DNA of 64,000 nucleotides from Pseudomonadota bacterium. GTDB lineage: Bacteria > Pseudomonadota > Gammaproteobacteria > JAKAQQ01. Numbering within the stretch: the stretch's first letter is position 1; each line of letters opens with the position of its first letter. A model generated the notes under the pieces. The model was not told the DNA's origin. It was given only the letters and a program-made list of their open reading frames with translations, and did not search any database. Where the stretch lies: the NCBI GenBank assembly GCA_021810635.1, contig JAJZIH010000008.1:22814-86813 (forward strand). The letters run 5' to 3'. This document shows positions 12,407-50,818 of the stretch, one piece after another. Position numbers and translations under genes: made by a program.

Positions 12407-13563
12407 GTGCGCCGTGGAAACGTGCGCTCTCTCAGTGGGAGATCGGCCCACCCGGCAGACGGTCACTCCAACCGGTAGTCATTGGAGCGGTTGTGGAGGG
12501 AACGAAGCGACCGAAGCCTTCGAAGTAAAGGGTCACCCAAGGGGTGATTCTGCGAACACGCGGGGGGCAACGGGTCGTGAACGTTGAGCAGGTCCCGAAA
12601 AAGAGATTGCGGATGCCGACCCGGTCGGAACTCGGGGGGAGGCTGGTATGGCTGGCGAAGCGAGCGATGAATGCAGCCGATCAGTCCGCCTGGATCGTGA
12701 CGGCGGCACGCGTGTATAGGGAGAGTGGTGCGATGTGGGGAGTCCTTGGGTGGCGGACGACGGCGTCCAACCGGATTCCCGCGCGGGAGAGGTCGGGCCG
12801 CTCGAGGATGGCGGACGGGCTCGTACGACCGATGAAGCCGGGTCATGCCGGTGGAGGAAAGGGGCCCGAGTTCAAGGTCAACGCAAGACATGGCGAGGAG
12901 CCCGGAGATTGGATCTGATGATCCTCGAACCTTCAAATCGTGTTCAGAAGCTACAGACGGCGTTACAGACCCAAGCGAAGGGATCGCCTGGCTATCGATT
13001 CGATTTGCTGTACGACAAGCGGTACCGCAAGGACGTACTGGAATAGGCCGATCGGTGCTGTAAAGCCAATCGGGGCGCACCGGGGGTGGACGGGCAGGAC
13101 TTTGCGGACATCGAGGCGTATGGGAAGGAGCGGTGGCTGGGTGAACTGGCGGATCAGCTCCGCAGGAAGACGGATCGAGCGGAGGCAGTGCGGCGGGTGT
13201 GGATACCGAAATCGGACGGACCCAAGCGCCCGCTCGGCATCCCATGCATCGCCGATCGGGCGGTCATGACGGCAGCGATGGCGGTGCTCGCACCGATCTT
13301 CGAGGCCGATCTGCCCGCCGAGCAGCATGCTTACCGTGCCAACTTCAGTGCCCATACGGCGGTGCGCTCAGTGCACAGCCTGATCCATACCGGACATACG
13401 CAGATGATTGAAGGCGACTTGGCCGGCTACTTCGATTCCTTGCCCCATGCCGAACTTCTGAAGTCGGTGGCACGCCGGGTCTCTGACCGGCACCTGCTGC
13501 ATCTGATCAAGATATGGCTGGATGCGCCGGTGGAAGAAGACAACGGCAAAGGCGGCAAGATCC
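12407..13563 (+). mobile_element. Truncated group II intron (5' part; domains V/VI not found)
   Basis: GUGCG-type 5' end at 12407 and LtrA-like RT downstream; intron/RT reading ends near 13560. Confidence 0.6.
12902..13563 (+). pseudogene. ltrA: Group II intron reverse transcriptase (LtrA-like), nonsense-mutated and 3'-truncated
   Basis: KANRGAPGVDGQ...RRVWIPKSDGPKRPLGIPCIADRAVMTAAMAVLAPIFEADLPAEQHAYR...EGDLAGYFDSLPHAELL; in-frame TAG at about 13044. Confidence 0.85.
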
Positions 13564-29448: not shown

Positions 29449-29925
29449 GTGACCAGTAAAGGCTGGTCTGAAAGGAAGGACGTGATCGGTCACGTCCGGA
29501 AATTCGGAGGATCCGTCCAGCGGGTGCGAATCCCGTCCGGCTAAAGCGAAGACCCGCAGGCCGGAAGCAAGCCTTGCGACGGCGGGGGTAACCCCGACGG
29601 TGATACGTAGGCATGGGAGAGTGTGAGCCGTGGGAATGCAGCCGCGTAATCTCCTTATCCCGGGTGTCCAAGGGGTCATGGTGTTGGAAGGCAGCAGTAC
29701 CATCTCCGTCAGCGTGGTCGAGGAGGTGGTGCACCCGGCGAGGTGTTCGACTACGGCGCGTGCTCAAGAGGTTATGAATGCAAAATAGAATCAGCAACCC
29801 AACAGGCGGATGTGTGTCAACGCGTTCTCGCACTGCACGGCAAGGAATTGGAGAGCGGCGCCATCGTTACCGCTGAGCCCGGAAGGCTGAGATTGAGACC
29901 TCCTGAGTAACCGCTCCCTGCGTCA
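29449..29925 (+). mobile_element. Group II intron-like 5' fragment (no RT ORF)
   Basis: GTGACCAG-TAAAGG-CTGGTCTGAAAGG 5' hairpin, then conserved-looking structured tract (gggtgcgaatcccgtccggc..., gggtaaccccgacggtgatacgtaggcatggg). Confidence 0.5.
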
Positions 29926-42852: not shown

Positions 42853-43641
42853 TCAGTCCACTGTGCGTAAAGTGGCCTGCGCGAGGGCGTGGAGATGGGA
42901 TTCCAGGCGGGCCGGGTCCCGGGATTTTTCGATCAGGCTGGATCCCACGATCACCCCATCCGCCCCCTGAGCCAAAGCCGCGCGCACGTCGGCGGGCGAG
43001 GAGATGCCGAAGCCGACGAGACCGGGCGGGGCCCCCAGGGCCCTCAGGGTTTCGAAGAGTCGGGCCTGGGGCCGGCCGGCCCCCCGCTCCGTGCCGGTCA
43101 CTCCGCTCCGGCTCACGACGTAGGTATAGCCCGAACCGAGTTTCGCGATCAGGGCCAGGGTCGCCTCCGGCGCATTGGGGGGAGCGATCAGGACCGCCGC
43201 GAGGCCGGCCTGCCGGGCTGCGGCCACGTAGGGTCCGGCTTCTTCCGCCGGCACGTCCGGGATGAGCACCGAGTCCGCTCCGGCCGCCTCAACCTGCCGG
43301 TAGAAACGTTCCGGTCCCGGCTGGTAGACCAGGTTGGCGTAAACCAGCAGTCCGATCGGCAGCTCCGGATGCTCCGCGCGCAGACGGCTCACCGTGGCGA
43401 GTCCCGAATCGATACGGGCACCGGCCGCGAGCGCCTCGTGGCTCGCCGTCTGGATGACCGGTCCGTCGGCGATGGGATCGGAGAAGGGCAGACCGAGTTC
43501 CAGGGCATCGGCGTGGGGGAGGAGGGCCTCGATCCACGCGAGCGAGCGGGCCGGGGTCGGATATCCCAGGACGGCAAAGGGGACGAGGGCACCCCGGCGC
43601 TCGCGCGCCAAGCGGTCGAAGAGGCGGGTGTAACGGCTCAC
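42853..43641 (-). CDS. trpA: Tryptophan synthase alpha chain
   Basis: [21 protein letters not shown]...[12 protein letters not shown]...VVSRSGVTG. Confidence 0.95.
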
Positions 43642-44843
43642 GGCGGGTTCTCCTCGAGCCCGGCTTGCACATGGGCGAGGTCCTTGTCACCCCGTCCCGA
43701 TAGGTTGACCAGGAGGCGGGCCGGGGCGGGACGGGTGCGCGCGAGCCGCTGGCAGTAGGCCAGGGCATGGGCCGACTCGAGGGCCGGGATGATGCCCTCG
43801 TCGCGGGCGAGCTGGCGGAAGGCGGAGAGAGCCTCGTCGTCGGTGGCCAACTCGTAGTGGACCCGTCCGGTCTCATGGAGATGGACATGCTCGGGACCCA
43901 CACCCGGATAATCCAGTCCGGCCGAGATGCTGTGCGACTCGAGAATCTGGCCCTCCCCGTCGGTCAGGATCAGGGTTTCGGCCCCATGCAGGATGCCGGG
44001 CCGTCCGCCGCTGATCGTGGCGCCATGGCGGCCGCTCGCCAGCCCCGCTCCACCTGCCTCGACACCGACGAGCGCAACATCGGGATCTTCGAGAAACGCC
44101 CGGAAGATGCCCAGCGCGTTCGAGCCGCCGCCGATGCAGGCCACGACCCGGTCCGGAAGAGCTCCACCGGTCTGTTCCAGGAACTGGACGCGGGCCTCGT
44201 CCCCGATGATGCGCTGGAACTCGCCCACGAGCGTTGGAAAAGGATGCGGACCCGCGACCGTGCCCACCAGATAATGGGTATCTCCGTAGCTCGCCGCCCA
44301 GTCGCGCAGGGCCTCGTTCATGGCATCCTTGAGGGTGGCGCTGCCAGCCGTGACGGAAATGACTTCGGCACCGAAGAGTTTCATGCGGAAGACATTGGGG
44401 GCCTGGCGCGCGCAGTCGGTGGCACCCATGTAGATGCGGACCGGGATCCGGAACAGGGCACCGGCCAGCGCGACCGCGACGCCGTGCTGCCCGGCCCCGG
44501 TTTCCGCGATGACCCGGGTTTTGCCCATGCGGCGGGCGAGCAGCATCTGGGCCAGGACCTGGTTGGTTTTGTGCGCTCCTCCGTGCAGGAGGTCCTCGCG
44601 TTTGAGGTAGATTTCAAGCCCCGAGCCGGCCAGAAAATTGCGGCAGCGGGTGAGGGGTGTCGGCCGACCGGCGAAATTCCGGAGGAGTCCGGCCAACTCC
44701 GCCTGGAAGGCGGGATCGGCGCGGGCATCCCGGAAGGCCCGATCGAGCTCGTCCAAGGCAGGGACCAGGATTTCGGGGACGTAACGGCCGCCCCAGCGGC
44801 CGAAACGGCCGGGATGCGGAGCCGGGGCGGTGGGGATGGTCAT
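43638..44843 (-). CDS. trpB: Tryptophan synthase beta chain
   Basis: [15 protein letters not shown]...[17 protein letters not shown]...[14 protein letters not shown]. Confidence 0.96.
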
Positions 44844-46228
44844 GGGGCACTCCGTCCGCGGCGCGGAAGGTTCTTGAGACGGTCGAAGAGCCGGGTCAGG
44901 AGTTGCGCGTCCTTCCGTCCGGGCGACTCCTCGACCGCCGAGTTGACGTCGATGAGCCAGGGATCGAGCGAACGGGCTGCCTCGATCCGGTCGGGACCGA
45001 TGCCGCCCGCGATGACCGCCCGGGAAAGTTCCGGCCAGAGACGGGCACGGGCGAGATCGAAAGGGATCCCGGTGCCGCCGAAGCGGATCCCGTTCGTAGT
45101 ATCCAAGACCAGGCGGTCCGCGCCGCACGAGGCCGCCGTGACGGGAGTGGCGTCCCAGGGAACGGCCTTCCAGAGCGCCACATCCGCCGGCAGATTTTCC
45201 CGGAGCGCATCCAGCACGCCCCGCGGCTCATCCCCGTGCAACTGGACGGCCGCCAGCCCGAGCGTACGGGCGCATTCGGCCATGACGCCGGGTTCGGCAT
45301 CCCGGAAGACGCCCACCCAGGCGAGCGGAGCCGATCCCACCAGGGTCTGCGCCTGCTCCCGGGTGACGGCGCGAGGTGAACCGGACACGAAGTTGAGCCC
45401 GCCGTGGGTGGCCCCGAGCGTCCACGCCAGACGGGCATCTTCGGGACGGGTCAGTCCACAAACCTTGACCTGCCCGAGGCGGAGGGCCCGGGCCGCGAGC
45501 TCGATCCGGGGTGCCCGCATGAGGGTGCTGCCCACGAGGAAGCCGTCGACCAGGGGTCCCAGTTCGCGCAGGTGGGCGTGGGTCTCGATTCCGGATTCGG
45601 CGATGACCGAAAGTCCGGGCGGGACCTTGGGGGCGAGACGCCGCGTGGTCTCGAGGTTGACCTCGAACGTCCTGAGATTGCGGTTGTTGATCCCGAGGAG
45701 ATCGCATCCGAGACGGAGCGCCCGCTCCAGCTCCGCCTCGTCATGGACTTCGGTGAGTGCGTCGAGGCCGAGCTCGCGAGCAAGTGCGAGGCAGTCGGAG
45801 TAGCACGAATCGTCGAGGACGGATAGCATGAGCAGCACGGCATCCGCCCCGTAACGGCGGGCCTCGAGCACCTCATAGGGATCGACGAGGATGTCCTTGC
45901 GCAAAAGCGGCAGGGGGCTGTGTTCGCGCCAGAAGGAAAGATCCGCCAGGCTGCCCTTGAAGAACCGTTCTTCCGTGAGGACCGAGACCGCATCCGCCCA
46001 CGCGTTGTAGGTCTTGGCCAGGTCGGCGAGGTCAGCTGCGGGGCGGAGCGCGCCGGCCGAGGGCGAGGCGCGCTTGCACTCCAGGATGAGGGTCAATCCG
46101 GGGGCCTTGAGGCGCCGACCGAGGGGGTTCCGGCCCAGGGTGAGTCCCCGGCGGAGCTCGGCCTCCGGGACGAGCCGCCTGCGCCCGGCCACGACCTCCC
46201 GCTTGTGGGCGACGATCGCCTCAAGCAC
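44840..46228 (-). CDS. trpCF: Bifunctional indole-3-glycerol phosphate synthase / phosphoribosylanthranilate isomerase
   Basis: IGPS domain ([15 protein letters not shown]...[14 protein letters not shown]) fused to PRAI ([16 protein letters not shown]...VQLHGDE). Confidence 0.95.
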
Positions 46229-47237
46229 GGGTTGCGACCTCCCGGAGGCGGGTCAGGATGTTCCGGGCGCCTCCGGCCGCGAGCGTCGCATACGCCTGTT
46301 CGGCCCCTTCCCGGAGGGTCTCGCAGCGGCCGGCAATCCAGAGCAGGGCCCCCGTATTGAGCGCCACCGACCAGGCGTACGCCGGCTTGGCCCGGCCGTC
46401 CAGGAGATCGGCGAGCGCGCGAGCATTGGCGGCTGCATCGCTGCCCTGGAGTGCCGCGAGCGGGTAGCTCGGAATGCCGAGCGATGCCGGTTCGAGGATC
46501 TGGTTCTCGATCACGCCGTCGCGGAGCAGGCTCAGGCGGGTCGGTCCGTGGAGCGCCATCTCGTCAATCCCCGAGCCGTGCAGCACGATGGCGCGGGTCC
46601 GGCCGAGTTCGGCGAGCGCTTGGGCCATGGGTTCCGTGCAGTCTGGATCATAGACGCCGACCAGCTGGATGGGCGGTCGCGCCGGGTTGAGCAGCGGGCC
46701 CAGGAGGTTGAACAGGGTTCGGATCCCGAGCGCACGGCGGACCGGCATGGCATGGCGCAGGCCCGGGTGGTACTGGGGGGCGAAGAGGAAGCAGAGTCCG
46801 GCCTCGTCCAGACAGGCGCGGGCTTGCTCCGGCGCAAGTTGCAGCGGAATGCCGAGCGCTTCGAACACGTCGGCGGATCCCGACCGTGAGGAGACCGACC
46901 GGTTTCCATGCTTGGCGATTGGCAAGCCACATGCCGCCGCGAGGAACGCGACGCCCGTCGAGATATTGAGGGTTCCCTGCCGGTCGCCTCCGGTCCCGCA
47001 GCTGTCGGCGAACGCATAGTCGGGAGCGGGGAAGGGTTTGGCGACTCCAATCAGGGTCCGGGCAAAGGCGGCCATTTCGCCTCCGGATTCCCGTTTGGCG
47101 CGGAATGCCACGACGAGGCCGGCCAGCTCCGCGGGATCCATCGTGCCCATGACCAGGGACTCGCAAACGGCGGCAATCTCCTGTGCCGGCAGTTCGTGTC
47201 CCGCGAGGAGCGATTCGAGTCGGGCACCCGGGTCCAT
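46221..47237 (-). CDS. trpD: Anthranilate phosphoribosyltransferase
   Basis: FADSCGTGGDRQGTLNISTGVAFLAAACGLPIAKHGNRSVSSRSGSADVFEALG. Confidence 0.96.
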   Translation of the reverse strand: MDPGARLESLLAGHELPAQEIAAVCESLVMGTMDPAELAGLVVAFRAKRESGGEMAAFARTLIGVAKPFPAPDYAFADSCGTGGDRQGTLNISTGVAFLAAACGLPIAKHGNRSVSSRSGSADVFEALGIPLQLAPEQARACLDEAGLCFLFAPQYHPGLRHAMPVRRALGIRTLFNLLGPLLNPARPPIQLVGVYDPDCTEPMAQALAELGRTRAIVLHGSGIDEMALHGPTRLSLLRDGVIENQILEPASLGIPSYPLAALQGSDAAANARALADLLDGRAKPAYAWSVALNTGALLWIAGRCETLREGAEQAYATLAAGGARNILTRLREVATRA

Positions 47238-47246
47238 CAGCGGAGC

Positions 47247-47861
47247 CTAGGGATAAGCCGGGCGGCGCCGGGCCCAGTCGAGCGCGCGGACGATGAGCGT
47301 GTGACCGAGCGGGGTCAGGATGGATTCGGGATGGAACTGCAGCCCCAGGATCGGATCGTGCTCGTGTTCCATGGCCATGAGCACCTCGTGGGATCCGTCG
47401 AGCGACCAGGCGCTTTTCCGGAAATGGGGCGGCAGGCGGTCGACCACGAGGGAGTGATAGCGGCCAGCCGTGAACGGGACGGGCAGGTCCTGCCAAAGAC
47501 CGCGGCCGTCATGGAAAATGGCGGCCGGCTTGCCATGGACGAGGAGGGGGGCCGCCCCGACGCTTCCGCCCAGAGCTTGGGCGATCGCTTGGTGGCCGAG
47601 GCAGATGCCCAGAAGCGGGATCCTCCCTGCCTGTGACCGGATGAGGTCGACGAGGCAGCCGGCCCCCTCCGGCCGGCCGGGCCCCGGCGACAGCACGACG
47701 AGCGTAGGCGGACGGACGGCCAGCCGGTCGGTCAGCGATTCAAGGGGGGTGTCGTTGCGCCAGATCTCAATTGTGGCTCCTGCCGACTGGAACTCGTCGA
47801 CCAGGTTATAGGTGAAGGAATCGAAGTTATCGATGAACAGAACGTGGGTGTCGGTCATCAT
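47247..47861 (-). CDS. trpG: Anthranilate synthase component II (glutamine amidotransferase)
   Basis: LFIDNFDSFTYNLVDEF...VVLSPGPGRPEGAG...LLGICLGHQAIAQALGG. Confidence 0.95.
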   Translation of the reverse strand: MMTDTHVLFIDNFDSFTYNLVDEFQSAGATIEIWRNDTPLESLTDRLAVRPPTLVVLSPGPGRPEGAGCLVDLIRSQAGRIPLLGICLGHQAIAQALGGSVGAAPLLVHGKPAAIFHDGRGLWQDLPVPFTAGRYHSLVVDRLPPHFRKSAWSLDGSHEVLMAMEHEHDPILGLQFHPESILTPLGHTLIVRALDWARRRPAYP

Positions 47862-49459
47862 GGGCCAGAATCTCCGCGGGTCCTCTCGATGGCTTCGAGA
47901 ACGGCTTCCGCCTTGCGACGGGTCTCGTCACTTTCCTGGACGGGATCCGAATCCGCGACCACGCCGCATCCGGCCTGGACCCAGGCCTGTCCGTGGGCCA
48001 CCCAGGCCGAGCGGATGACGATCGCGGTATCGAGGTTCCCGCGCAGATCCAGGTAGCCCACGGCTCCGCCGTAGGGACCCCGGGGATGGGGTTCACGGTT
48101 GCGCAACAATTGCATGGCGCGGATCTTGGGGGCACCGGTCAGCGTGCCCATGTTGAGACAGGCCTGATAGGCATGCAGGGCATCCAGGTCCGGATCCAGG
48201 GTGCCCTGGACCCGGGAGACGAGATGCATGACGTGGGAATAGCGTTCCACCGCCATGAGCTCGGTGACGGTCCGGGTACCCGGTTGCGAGACCCGGGCCA
48301 CGTCGTTCCGGGCCAGGTCGATCAGCATGGCATGTTCGGCCAGTTCCTTGGCGCTCAGCCGGAGCTCGAGTTCCAGCCGGGCGTCCCGGTCGGCGTCCAG
48401 CGATCCGTCCGGATGGAGGGCGCGGGGTCGGGTGCCGGCGATCGGCCGGATCTCGACCCGTGACTCGGCGGCGCTGACCTTGAGCGCGCTCTCCGGGGAG
48501 GCTCCGAAAAGGATCCCGTCCCCATCTTCCAGGAAGAACATGTAGGGGCTCGGGTTGAGTTGTCGCAGTTCGGCATAGGCGCGCAGCGGGTCCGGGCAGG
48601 CGGTTTCGAACCGGCGCGAGGGGACGATCTGGAAGACTTCTCCCCGGGCGATCTCGTCCTTGAAATCCCGGACGATGGTGGCGAAAGCCTCGTCGGAAAG
48701 GGTCGTCCGGTCGCTATGGGCGCCAGGTCGTGCCGGGCGGGGGCGGTTTTGTAAGACCGGGTCCGGCGTGGAGCGGATCAGGCGTTCGAGTTCGGTCAGG
48801 CGCCGCCGGGCCGTGAGCTCCAGGTCCTGGGGCGGGTCATCGCCGAAGACCACGGTCGTGATCGTGGTCGAGCCTTGGGCGTGGTTGATCAGAACCCGGG
48901 TTTCGCAGAGATGGAACTCGAAGTCCGCGACCGGCCGTTCCGCGGCCTGGCGCGGCGGCAGGGATTCGAAGCGGTCCGCGAGATCGTAGGCGAACAGGCC
49001 GTAGGCGTGGACACTTTCAAGGGTTTTCGAGTCCGCCTGCCAGCTCCATAAAAGGGCGCGCAGCGGATCGAACGGACCGGCGGCCCGCAGTCGCGCCGCC
49101 TCATCGAGCGTCCGGGGGGCGGGCTCGACGGGGAAGCGGAATCCCCCATCGGGCAGTTCGCGGGCGCCGTCCGTCCATCCGGCGCGGCGCAGGCTGTCCA
49201 AGGCAAACCGACCGTTGGCGGTGAGGGGATGCCAGTCGACCGTATCCCCGACCAGCCGGCACCGGATGGCCGGGTCGACATAGAGGAGGCTCTGGGCCTC
49301 GCGCTTTTCAGTTTGGTCGGCCGTCTCGAACAGGGCACGCGGGCACGGATCGGCGGATGCCCGCAGGCGGACGAACAGAGCCAGGGGATCGGGCAGGTGA
49401 TCGAGGCGGCGGGACAGGGTGCGCAGTCCGGGCTTCGTCGGTGGTGAAGGGGTCGTCAT
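47858..49459 (-). CDS. trpE: Anthranilate synthase component I
   Basis: EIARGEVFQIVPSRRF...NPSPYMFFLEDGDGILFGASPE...GTLTGAPKIRAMQLL...GPYGGAVGYLD. Confidence 0.95.
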   Translation of the reverse strand: MTTPSPPTKPGLRTLSRRLDHLPDPLALFVRLRASADPCPRALFETADQTEKREAQSLLYVDPAIRCRLVGDTVDWHPLTANGRFALDSLRRAGWTDGARELPDGGFRFPVEPAPRTLDEAARLRAAGPFDPLRALLWSWQADSKTLESVHAYGLFAYDLADRFESLPPRQAAERPVADFEFHLCETRVLINHAQGSTTITTVVFGDDPPQDLELTARRRLTELERLIRSTPDPVLQNRPRPARPGAHSDRTTLSDEAFATIVRDFKDEIARGEVFQIVPSRRFETACPDPLRAYAELRQLNPSPYMFFLEDGDGILFGASPESALKVSAAESRVEIRPIAGTRPRALHPDGSLDADRDARLELELRLSAKELAEHAMLIDLARNDVARVSQPGTRTVTELMAVERYSHVMHLVSRVQGTLDPDLDALHAYQACLNMGTLTGAPKIRAMQLLRNREPHPRGPYGGAVGYLDLRGNLDTAIVIRSAWVAHGQAWVQAGCGVVADSDPVQESDETRRKAEAVLEAIERTRGDSGP

Positions 49460-50466
49460 GGGAGGTTGCGTCCGAACAGTTGCGCGAGCGGTCGGAGTTC
49501 ACGCATGAGGCGGATGAAACCCTGGGGGTCGAGGGATTGCCGGCCGTCCGACCAGGCCCGGGTCGGGTCCGGGTGGACTTCGATGAGCAGTCCGTCGGCC
49601 CCGGCGGCGAGTGCTGCCTTGCTGAGCGGGGGGACCAGTTCGGATAGCCCGGTGCCGTGTGACGGGTCGACCAAAACCGGCAGGTGCGTTTTGATCTTGA
49701 GCCAGGCCACGGCGTTGAGGTCAAGGGTATTGCGGGTGGCCGTTTCAAAGGTCCGGATTCCGCGTTCGCAGAGAATGACCGCTTCGTTGCCGGCATCGAC
49801 GATGTACTCGGCCGCGAGCAGGAGTTCTTCCAGAGTGGCCGCAAACCCCCGTTTCAGGATGACGGGGAGCTTCTGGGAACCCACGGCCTTGAGCAGCGAG
49901 AAGTTGTGCATGTTGCGGGCTCCCACCTGCAGGACCTGGACCGACTCGGTCATGGCCGGCAGGTCTTCAGCATCCATGATCTCGGTGATGACGGGCAGAT
50001 GGTGGGGGAGAGCGGCCTCGCGCAACAGGCGCAGACCGCTTCGCCCGTGTCCCTGGAAGCTGTACGGGCTCGTGCGGGGTTTGAAGGCGCCGCCGCGGAG
50101 TCCGTGGGCTCCGGCGGCGCGGACCGTGGCGGCGATCGACTGCATCTGTTCCGGCGTTTCGACGGCGCAGGGCCCTGCGATCACGACGAACGACTCGCCT
50201 CCGACCGTGACGTCCCCGAGCGGAACGAGCGTGTCGTGCGGATGGAGCGCCCGGGCCACCCGCTTGTAGGGAGCGGCATCGCGGATGCATTCCTCGACGT
50301 AGGGATGGATCGCGAAGCGTTCGGTGATCTCTGGAGGGCCCACCAGCGCCAGGGCACGCCGGTCAAGACCCGGCAGCGGAACCACCTCGAGCCGGGCCGC
50401 CTTGAGTTCCTCGACGAAGCGGTTTTGAACGTCGGGATCGAGGCCGGGTTTGAGAATGAGGTACAT
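49456..50466 (-). CDS. aroF: 3-deoxy-7-phosphoheptulonate synthase (type I-beta, ferredoxin-like N-domain)
   Basis: VVIAGPCAVETPEQ...LRGGAFKPRTSPYSFQG...VLVDPSHGTG. Confidence 0.93.
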   Translation of the reverse strand: MYLILKPGLDPDVQNRFVEELKAARLEVVPLPGLDRRALALVGPPEITERFAIHPYVEECIRDAAPYKRVARALHPHDTLVPLGDVTVGGESFVVIAGPCAVETPEQMQSIAATVRAAGAHGLRGGAFKPRTSPYSFQGHGRSGLRLLREAALPHHLPVITEIMDAEDLPAMTESVQVLQVGARNMHNFSLLKAVGSQKLPVILKRGFAATLEELLLAAEYIVDAGNEAVILCERGIRTFETATRNTLDLNAVAWLKIKTHLPVLVDPSHGTGLSELVPPLSKAALAAGADGLLIEVHPDPTRAWSDGRQSLDPQGFIRLMRELRPLAQLFGRNLP

Positions 50467-50477
50467 GCAACGCTCCT

Positions 50478-50509
50478 AAAAACGGACGGCCCGCATTGCG
50501 GGCCGTCCG
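50478..50509 (-). terminator. Intrinsic terminator upstream of aroF-trp operon (candidate attenuator)
   Basis: Minus strand CGGACGGCCCGC-AAT-GCGGGCCGTCCG-TTTTT, then AGGAG SD and aroF ATG. Confidence 0.9.
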
Positions 50510-50531
50510 GAAAGAAGGGGAGGGATGCCCG

Positions 50532-50612
50532 CTAGGGGGAAGGCAGCCGCCACCAGGTCCACGTCCCCGGACGGCATTCTGCCCGAAGCAGGGCGGGGAT
50601 CCCGCCAGCCAC
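50532..50612 (-). promoter_or_regulatory. Candidate Trp leader peptide (26 codons, GTG start)
   Basis: MAGGIPALLRAECRPGTWTWWRLPSP*: three Trp codons (TGG ACC TGG TGG) just 5' of the terminator. Confidence 0.6.
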
Positions 50613-50818
50613 GCCCGCAGCCGCCGGATCCACGGTTGCAGAGAGGAGACCTGGACTGGTTTTCTCTAGAATCAACGCACCCTCGACCGATGACCCACGA
50701 AGACAGCGGAGAAGCGGACGAATCCATGATAGCCTGAAGCGGGAGGGCTGACAAGAAGCGGCCTCATGACCCGTCCGGGCAGAACCCCGGACGGCGGAGT
50801 ATTGCGCGGGGTGCCAGG

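Follow-up and report, generated by a model that had tools for sequence, protein, structure and literature searches.

A candidate Trp-codon transcription attenuator ahead of the DAHP synthase gene of an aroF-trp operon

Sequence comparison and modelled folding of the window, the whole 64,000-nucleotide stretch of DNA that was analysed, indicate that its aroF-trpEGD(CF)BA operon is very probably controlled by a ribosome-mediated transcription attenuator that reads Trp codons. The initial annotation had proposed such ribosome-mediated attenuation ahead of DAHP synthase from the window alone. The proposal is now strengthened by the conservation of the parts in relatives, by their restriction to aroF genes linked to trpE, and by the presence of Tyr codons before an operon of the tyrA type. 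Attenuators of this kind are known; the position, in front of a DAHP synthase gene, is less usual.

Organization of the operon and its leader

The operon is encoded on the minus strand in the order aroF (49456..50466, ATG at 50466), trpE (47858..49459, overlapping aroF), trpG (47247..47861), trpD (46221..47237), a trpC-trpF fusion (44840..46228, PRK09427), trpB (43638..44843) and trpA (42853..43641), with overlaps between most of the genes. The start of trpB was placed where the TIGR00263 match begins, and is likely an internal start within the ORF listed as 43638-45128. The first gene, aroF, encodes a DAHP synthase (TIGR01361 / PRK08673) and is preceded by a Shine-Dalgarno sequence, AGGAG (50473..50477, minus strand), read in the sequence. 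The gene names first assigned to the operon were all confirmed, from DAHP synthase and TrpE, TrpG and TrpD to the TrpC-TrpF fusion, TrpB and TrpA. Elsewhere, the window contains two group II intron structures, at 12433-12575 and 29527-29753 (Rfam RF02003 and RF02005).

A 14-kb scan revealed its best sigma-70-type site upstream of the aroF leader, TTGTCA-17-TATCAT (50754-50726, minus strand), with 10/12 matches and a 17-nt spacer. The -35 hexamer TTGTCA (50749..50754) and the -10 hexamer TATCAT (50726..50731) are identical in the congener G002, including their spacing, and the other family genomes have TTGACA at -35. This consensus site provides a promoter upstream of the leader ORF, as in Trp attenuators, with a predicted transcription start near 50719. 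Just upstream of the promoter, between divergent genes, sits a hairpin, CCGTCCGGG-GTTCTG-CCCGGACGG (window 50771-50794), which has a 9-mer in common with a private element of this genome at 50566-50574; in G002, another hairpin (CCGGGG/CCCCGG) occupies roughly this position.

The leader-peptide ORF (50532..50675, minus strand), its frame read from the sequence, encodes MILEKTSPGLLSATVDPAAAGVAGGIPALLRAECRPGTWTWWRLPSP from a proposed TTG start at 50675 to the stop codon. A candidate Shine-Dalgarno sequence, GAGG (50681..50684, minus strand), lies 5 nt before the TTG, and GAGG-N5-TTG is also present in G002, so that two genomes, the window genome G000 and its congener, support the UUG start. The leader probably begins at this UUG, upstream of GTG 50612 and GTG 50633, from which the initial annotation had read the ORF; both GTG codons are possible starts, but the TTG with its GAGG is the better candidate. 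The stop codon read there, TAG 50534-50532, is retained (50532..50534, minus strand), and in G002, G004, G006 and G008 the stop is equally far from the last Trp codon. The frame ends in ...GTWTWWRLPSP before the stop, and its equivalent in G002 in ...VAWAWWLCNPF.

The regulatory codons TGG ACC TGG TGG (WTWW, 50550..50561, minus strand) place Trp at 50561-50559, 50555-50553 and 50552-50550. Between the leader ORF and aroF lies an intrinsic terminator, also found in relatives, which consists of the 5' arm CGGACGGCCCGC (segment 3, 50498..50509), the loop AAT, the 3' arm GCGGGCCGTCCG (segment 4, 50483..50494) and a U5 tract (50478..50482), all on the minus strand. With 12 pairs, compared to 5-8 in the other eight terminator-like sites, this hairpin is the strongest of the 14-kb scan. 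The ORF with WTWW, the perfect 12-bp hairpin, U5, AGGAG and the ATG of aroF are all located as originally read. Upstream of the terminator, the hexamer GCGGGC (segment 2, 50527..50532, minus strand) overlaps the stop codon and can pair with the core GCCCGC (50498-50503) of the 5' arm, and a 9-bp complement to the same arm, GCCGTCCGG, is found at 50567..50575 on the minus strand.

From these parts we infer how transcription start, leader translation, readthrough and the response to Trp would be connected. RNA polymerase would start at the promoter, and a ribosome would translate the leader. When charged tRNA-Trp is scarce, the ribosome would stall on WTWW. Its footprint would reach about 12-13 nt beyond the codon in the A site, so that GCGGGC, which lies 20 nt after the last Trp codon, would stay free for the GCCCGC of the terminator 5' arm. 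This pairing, formed as soon as the 5' arm is made, would prevent the terminator and allow readthrough into aroF and the trp genes. Once charged tRNA-Trp suffices, the ribosome would reach the stop codon and sit on GCGGGC, so that the 12-bp terminator could form and transcription would end at U5.

Conservation of the leader and its linkage to trpE

We compared the upstream regions of aroF from the window's own GTDB family, from class-wide samples and from named genomes, most of the relatives being draft or metagenome-assembled genomes. A leader with Trp codons and a terminator precedes aroF in 16/16 cases in which aroF is joined to trpE, eight in the window's family and eight in other lineages, and the trpE-linked set covers several lineages. 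Among the tested aroF loci with enough flank, the layout is present in 15/15 trpE-linked and 0/115 unlinked ones (Fisher p about 6e-20, a value overstated by the non-independence of related genomes). The sixteenth trpE-linked case, G007, is divided over two contigs, one carrying the leader at its end and the other aroF-trpE. Given 16/16 against 0/115, the leader and terminator are not a product of chance. The layout, defined as a leader in which two of three successive codons are Trp, with a stop and a terminator, arose in about 0.1% of dinucleotide shuffles of the upstream regions.

The leaders of eight family genomes, which belong to three genera, carry the runs WTWW, WAWW, WW, WW, WW, WWW, WWWW and WWW at the same place, followed by the stop codon and a GCCCGC/GCGGGC terminator, with an extra GCGGGC at or just before the stop. 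In an alignment of these leaders with that of G056 (nine leaders), the only invariant columns are those of the Trp region, segment 2 and both terminator arms. The same Trp-leader layout was found in G056, G164, G170, G276 and G386. The initial annotation had looked to the leaders of relatives for conserved Trp codons, a terminator and covariation. A short ORF with tandem Trp codons, followed by the antiterminator strand and a terminator, is indeed conserved in the three family genera and the five further genomes, whereas covariation between segments 2 and 3 is not clear: the GCGGG core is invariant, and pairing beyond it is not clearly better within than between lineages (420/5040 permutations reach it).

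In G048 and G159, the aroF leader carries Tyr codons, YGYY, instead of Trp codons, with the peptide reading MRYPFATTYGYYVFPPAGKRAHIV up to its stop in G048 (L009 / L115, G048:C11) and MRFHFATTYGYYVF... in G159 (L157). The Tyr-type leader has a terminator, AGGCCCGCTTTCC/GGGAAGCGGGCCT, and an 8-bp antiterminator, CGGGAAAG:CTTTCCCG, 16 nt past the last Tyr codon. As read from the translations, G048 encodes a fusion of AroF with a chorismate mutase domain, and the gene behind it is that of prephenate dehydrogenase (tyrA); G164, a member of the same family, has aroF-trpE with a WWW leader. The identity of the leader codons thus follows the product of the operon, Trp with trpE and Tyr with chorismate mutase-tyrA, which amounts to a natural experiment within one bacterial family. 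We regard the leader of G048 and G159 as a candidate for a Tyr attenuator; the Trp-type leader of G164 comes from the family of G048.

The sphingomonad-type genomes G057, G058 and G113 (L036, L037/L117 and L118) also have aroF-trpE, with WWRW or WWW leaders and terminators. A GCGGG segment 2 was not found in these three leaders, and the stretch from stop to terminator is longer, which points to a switch built differently. AroF of such sphingomonad-type aroF-trpE operons occurred in 2/61 genomes of one family sample. G056 (L035), a MAG with the label Acidobacteriaceae, has not only aroF-trpE with its Trp leader but also a second DAHP synthase-like gene; 0/19 aroF loci fetched from its relatives are linked to trpE, which suggests a transfer or a foreign contig.

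The leaders vary at their 5' ends. In the window's genus, a predicted 5' leader of roughly 40 nt precedes the UUG start with GAGG. The sister genera, except G007, have an in-frame ATG 6-7 nt past the -10 hexamer, which predicts leaderless translation. G048, G056, G164 and G170 show a comparable spacing from -10 to ATG (7-9 nt), and several other lineages look leaderless. In G007, the Trp codons are not in the reading frame of the first ATG past the promoter, possibly owing to an assembly error.

Switch strand and alternative readings

As the initial annotation had advised, the leaders were folded with and without a stalled ribosome, which was assumed to cover -15 to +12. In 8/8 family leaders, a ribosome at the last Trp codon allowed segment 2 to pair with the terminator 5' arm at 0.86-1.00 in RNA that does not yet include arm 4, and a ribosome at the stop brought this pairing to 0.00. 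In the models, the antiterminator strand is thus free in the stalled state and hidden at the stop. Across 13 leaders, GCGGG always lies 13-21 nt past the last Trp codon, at -16 to +2 of the stop. A rightly placed 6-bp complement appears in 1-8% of the shuffles of a single GC-rich leader, and the case for the antiterminator therefore rests on its recurrence.

Modelling of the full-length leaders revealed differences among the genera. For G003, G005 and G007, the switch is visible even in the full-length fold, with the terminator at 0.00 when stalled vs 0.92-0.97 at the stop. Full-length folding of the window leader favours the terminator in every ribosome state (0.99), and the terminator likewise always prevails in its genus and in the third one; the switch in these two genera must therefore be kinetic. 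When no ribosome is modelled, segment 2 remains free in most family leaders, and untranslated leaders should accordingly read through. The untranslated leaders of G164, G170 and G048 do not form the pairing between segments 2 and 3, and the simple geometry does not hold for the modelled leaders of G057 and G386.

Two candidate antiterminator strands had been named at the outset, of which GCGGGC is conserved and GCCGTCCGG is private to this genome. The same attenuator might still use GCCGTCCGG, upstream of the Trp codons, as its main antiterminator strand here. This segment can form the longest pairing with the terminator 5' arm (9-10 bp) and is the best upstream complement in G000; it also dominates the ribosome-free fold of the window leader before arm 4 (segment 2 only 0.02). 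However, it is absent from the congener G002 and every other family leader (G002-G008), and segment 2 prevails at 0.86 once a stalled ribosome is modelled, which makes GCCGTCCGG very unlikely as the switch strand; it may add a competing structure. Its recurrence in the leaders and the models point to GCGGGC (50527-50532), at the leader stop, as the antiterminator strand, which largely settles the switching logic. It is hardly credible that the hairpin is a constitutive partial terminator before aroF and the Trp codons a coincidence. Hairpins are common in GC-rich DNA (9 terminator-like sites in the scanned region vs 7.5 expected), but Trp runs at a fixed place in the 16 trpE-linked leaders and in none of the 115 unlinked ones, their replacement by Tyr codons where the operon makes Tyr, and the rarity of the layout in shuffles all argue against this reading.

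T-box, TRAP and TrpR systems control trp genes in other bacteria, so an untranslated protein- or tRNA-sensing leader (T-box, TRAP site) or a TrpR operator could be imagined as the control of this operon. We give such control next to no weight: Rfam searches of the whole window at the gathering threshold, and of the leader at E up to 10, gave no match to the T-box RF00230, to Trp_leader RF00513 or to any other relevant family, TrpR is missing in 8/9 family genomes with a borderline match in G003, and what is conserved is a Trp-codon run that shares its frame with a stop. A weak Rfam match to ncr1241 over the stop codon and terminator (E 0.021, 26/60 bits) is far below the cut-off. Compatible with attenuation, the terminated leader RNA or peptide might also act in trans, as rnTrpL/peTrpL of Sinorhizobium meliloti do (PMC7298713). 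Attenuation would indeed release a short RNA with a complete ORF, but apart from the Trp codons the peptides show little conservation, so that a conserved peptide role in trans is unlikely, and we consider a trans function highly improbable.

Entry into the aromatic pathway and known leaders

In the family genomes, PF00793 matches this AroF and at most one second protein of KdsA size, which was identified as KdsA in G000 and G003. Profile searches revealed neither a class II DAHP synthase (PF01474) nor a member of the DHQS family PF01959 in any of the nine family genomes. The completeness is 94-96% in three of the nine; in G001, which is 89% complete, neither AroF nor TrpE was found, owing to loss or an assembly gap. 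Judged from these draft genomes, AroF is apparently the only DAHP synthase in this uncultivated family. The unusual point is that the operon begins with the apparent sole enzyme for entry into the aromatic pathway. With no other DAHP synthase found and TrpR missing in 8/9 genomes, the attenuator may be the main control of this only DAHP synthase. It is conceivable, at slightly under an even chance, that the only DAHP synthase is co-transcribed with trp in such a way that charged tRNA-Trp alone governs transcription of the gene for the first step towards Phe, Tyr, folate and quinones. If true, this Trp-only gating would be an unusual wiring that needs compensation by leaky readthrough, an internal promoter or feedback inhibition, and it raises the question of how the supply of Phe and Tyr is kept up under control by Trp alone.

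Leader-peptide attenuation, Trp attenuators, leaderless Trp leaders and leader ORFs before DAHP synthase genes are already known; Trp attenuators are reportedly also the subject of Vitreschak 2004 and Merino 2008. A description of the aroF-trpE arrangement with a Trp attenuator, and likewise the phrase aroF-trpE, was not found in the literature searched, the coverage of which is incomplete, and the present leaders add a conserved Trp attenuator for lineages without one described there. Similar to the enterobacterial Trp leader (RF00513, E. coli trpL), the window leader has a short peptide with tandem Trp codons and an antiterminator set against an intrinsic terminator, upstream of trp biosynthesis genes. 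It differs from E. coli trpL in preceding aroF rather than trpE, and RF00513 remains unmatched even at E up to 10. Compared to the 1:2 protector design of E. coli, most family leaders have no visible segment-1 protector, with segment 2 free without a ribosome, and the leaders of the sister genera look leaderless.

The trpL of S. meliloti, also a Trp-codon attenuator, is leaderless, its transcript starting at the AUG of the leader ORF (PMC7298713), and a similar start at AUG is predicted for two sister genera and several other lineages. However, the S. meliloti attenuator precedes trpE(G), without aroF, and the window's genus differs by its predicted 5' leader and UUG start. A leader ORF directly before a DAHP synthase gene, as in the window, is present in Corynebacterium glutamicum, which has a candidate Phe-Tyr-Phe leader before aroF and two DAHP synthases (PMC4046766), and in Acholeplasma, where uORFC-13-1 is a candidate leader-peptide attenuator (PMC8632094). 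These leaders use Phe/Tyr or Phe codons, whereas those of the window's family use Trp; moreover, the family apparently has one DAHP synthase compared to the two of C. glutamicum. The leaders compared here suggest differences among lineages in the 5' UTR and the protector hairpin, which are useful for models of attenuator evolution.
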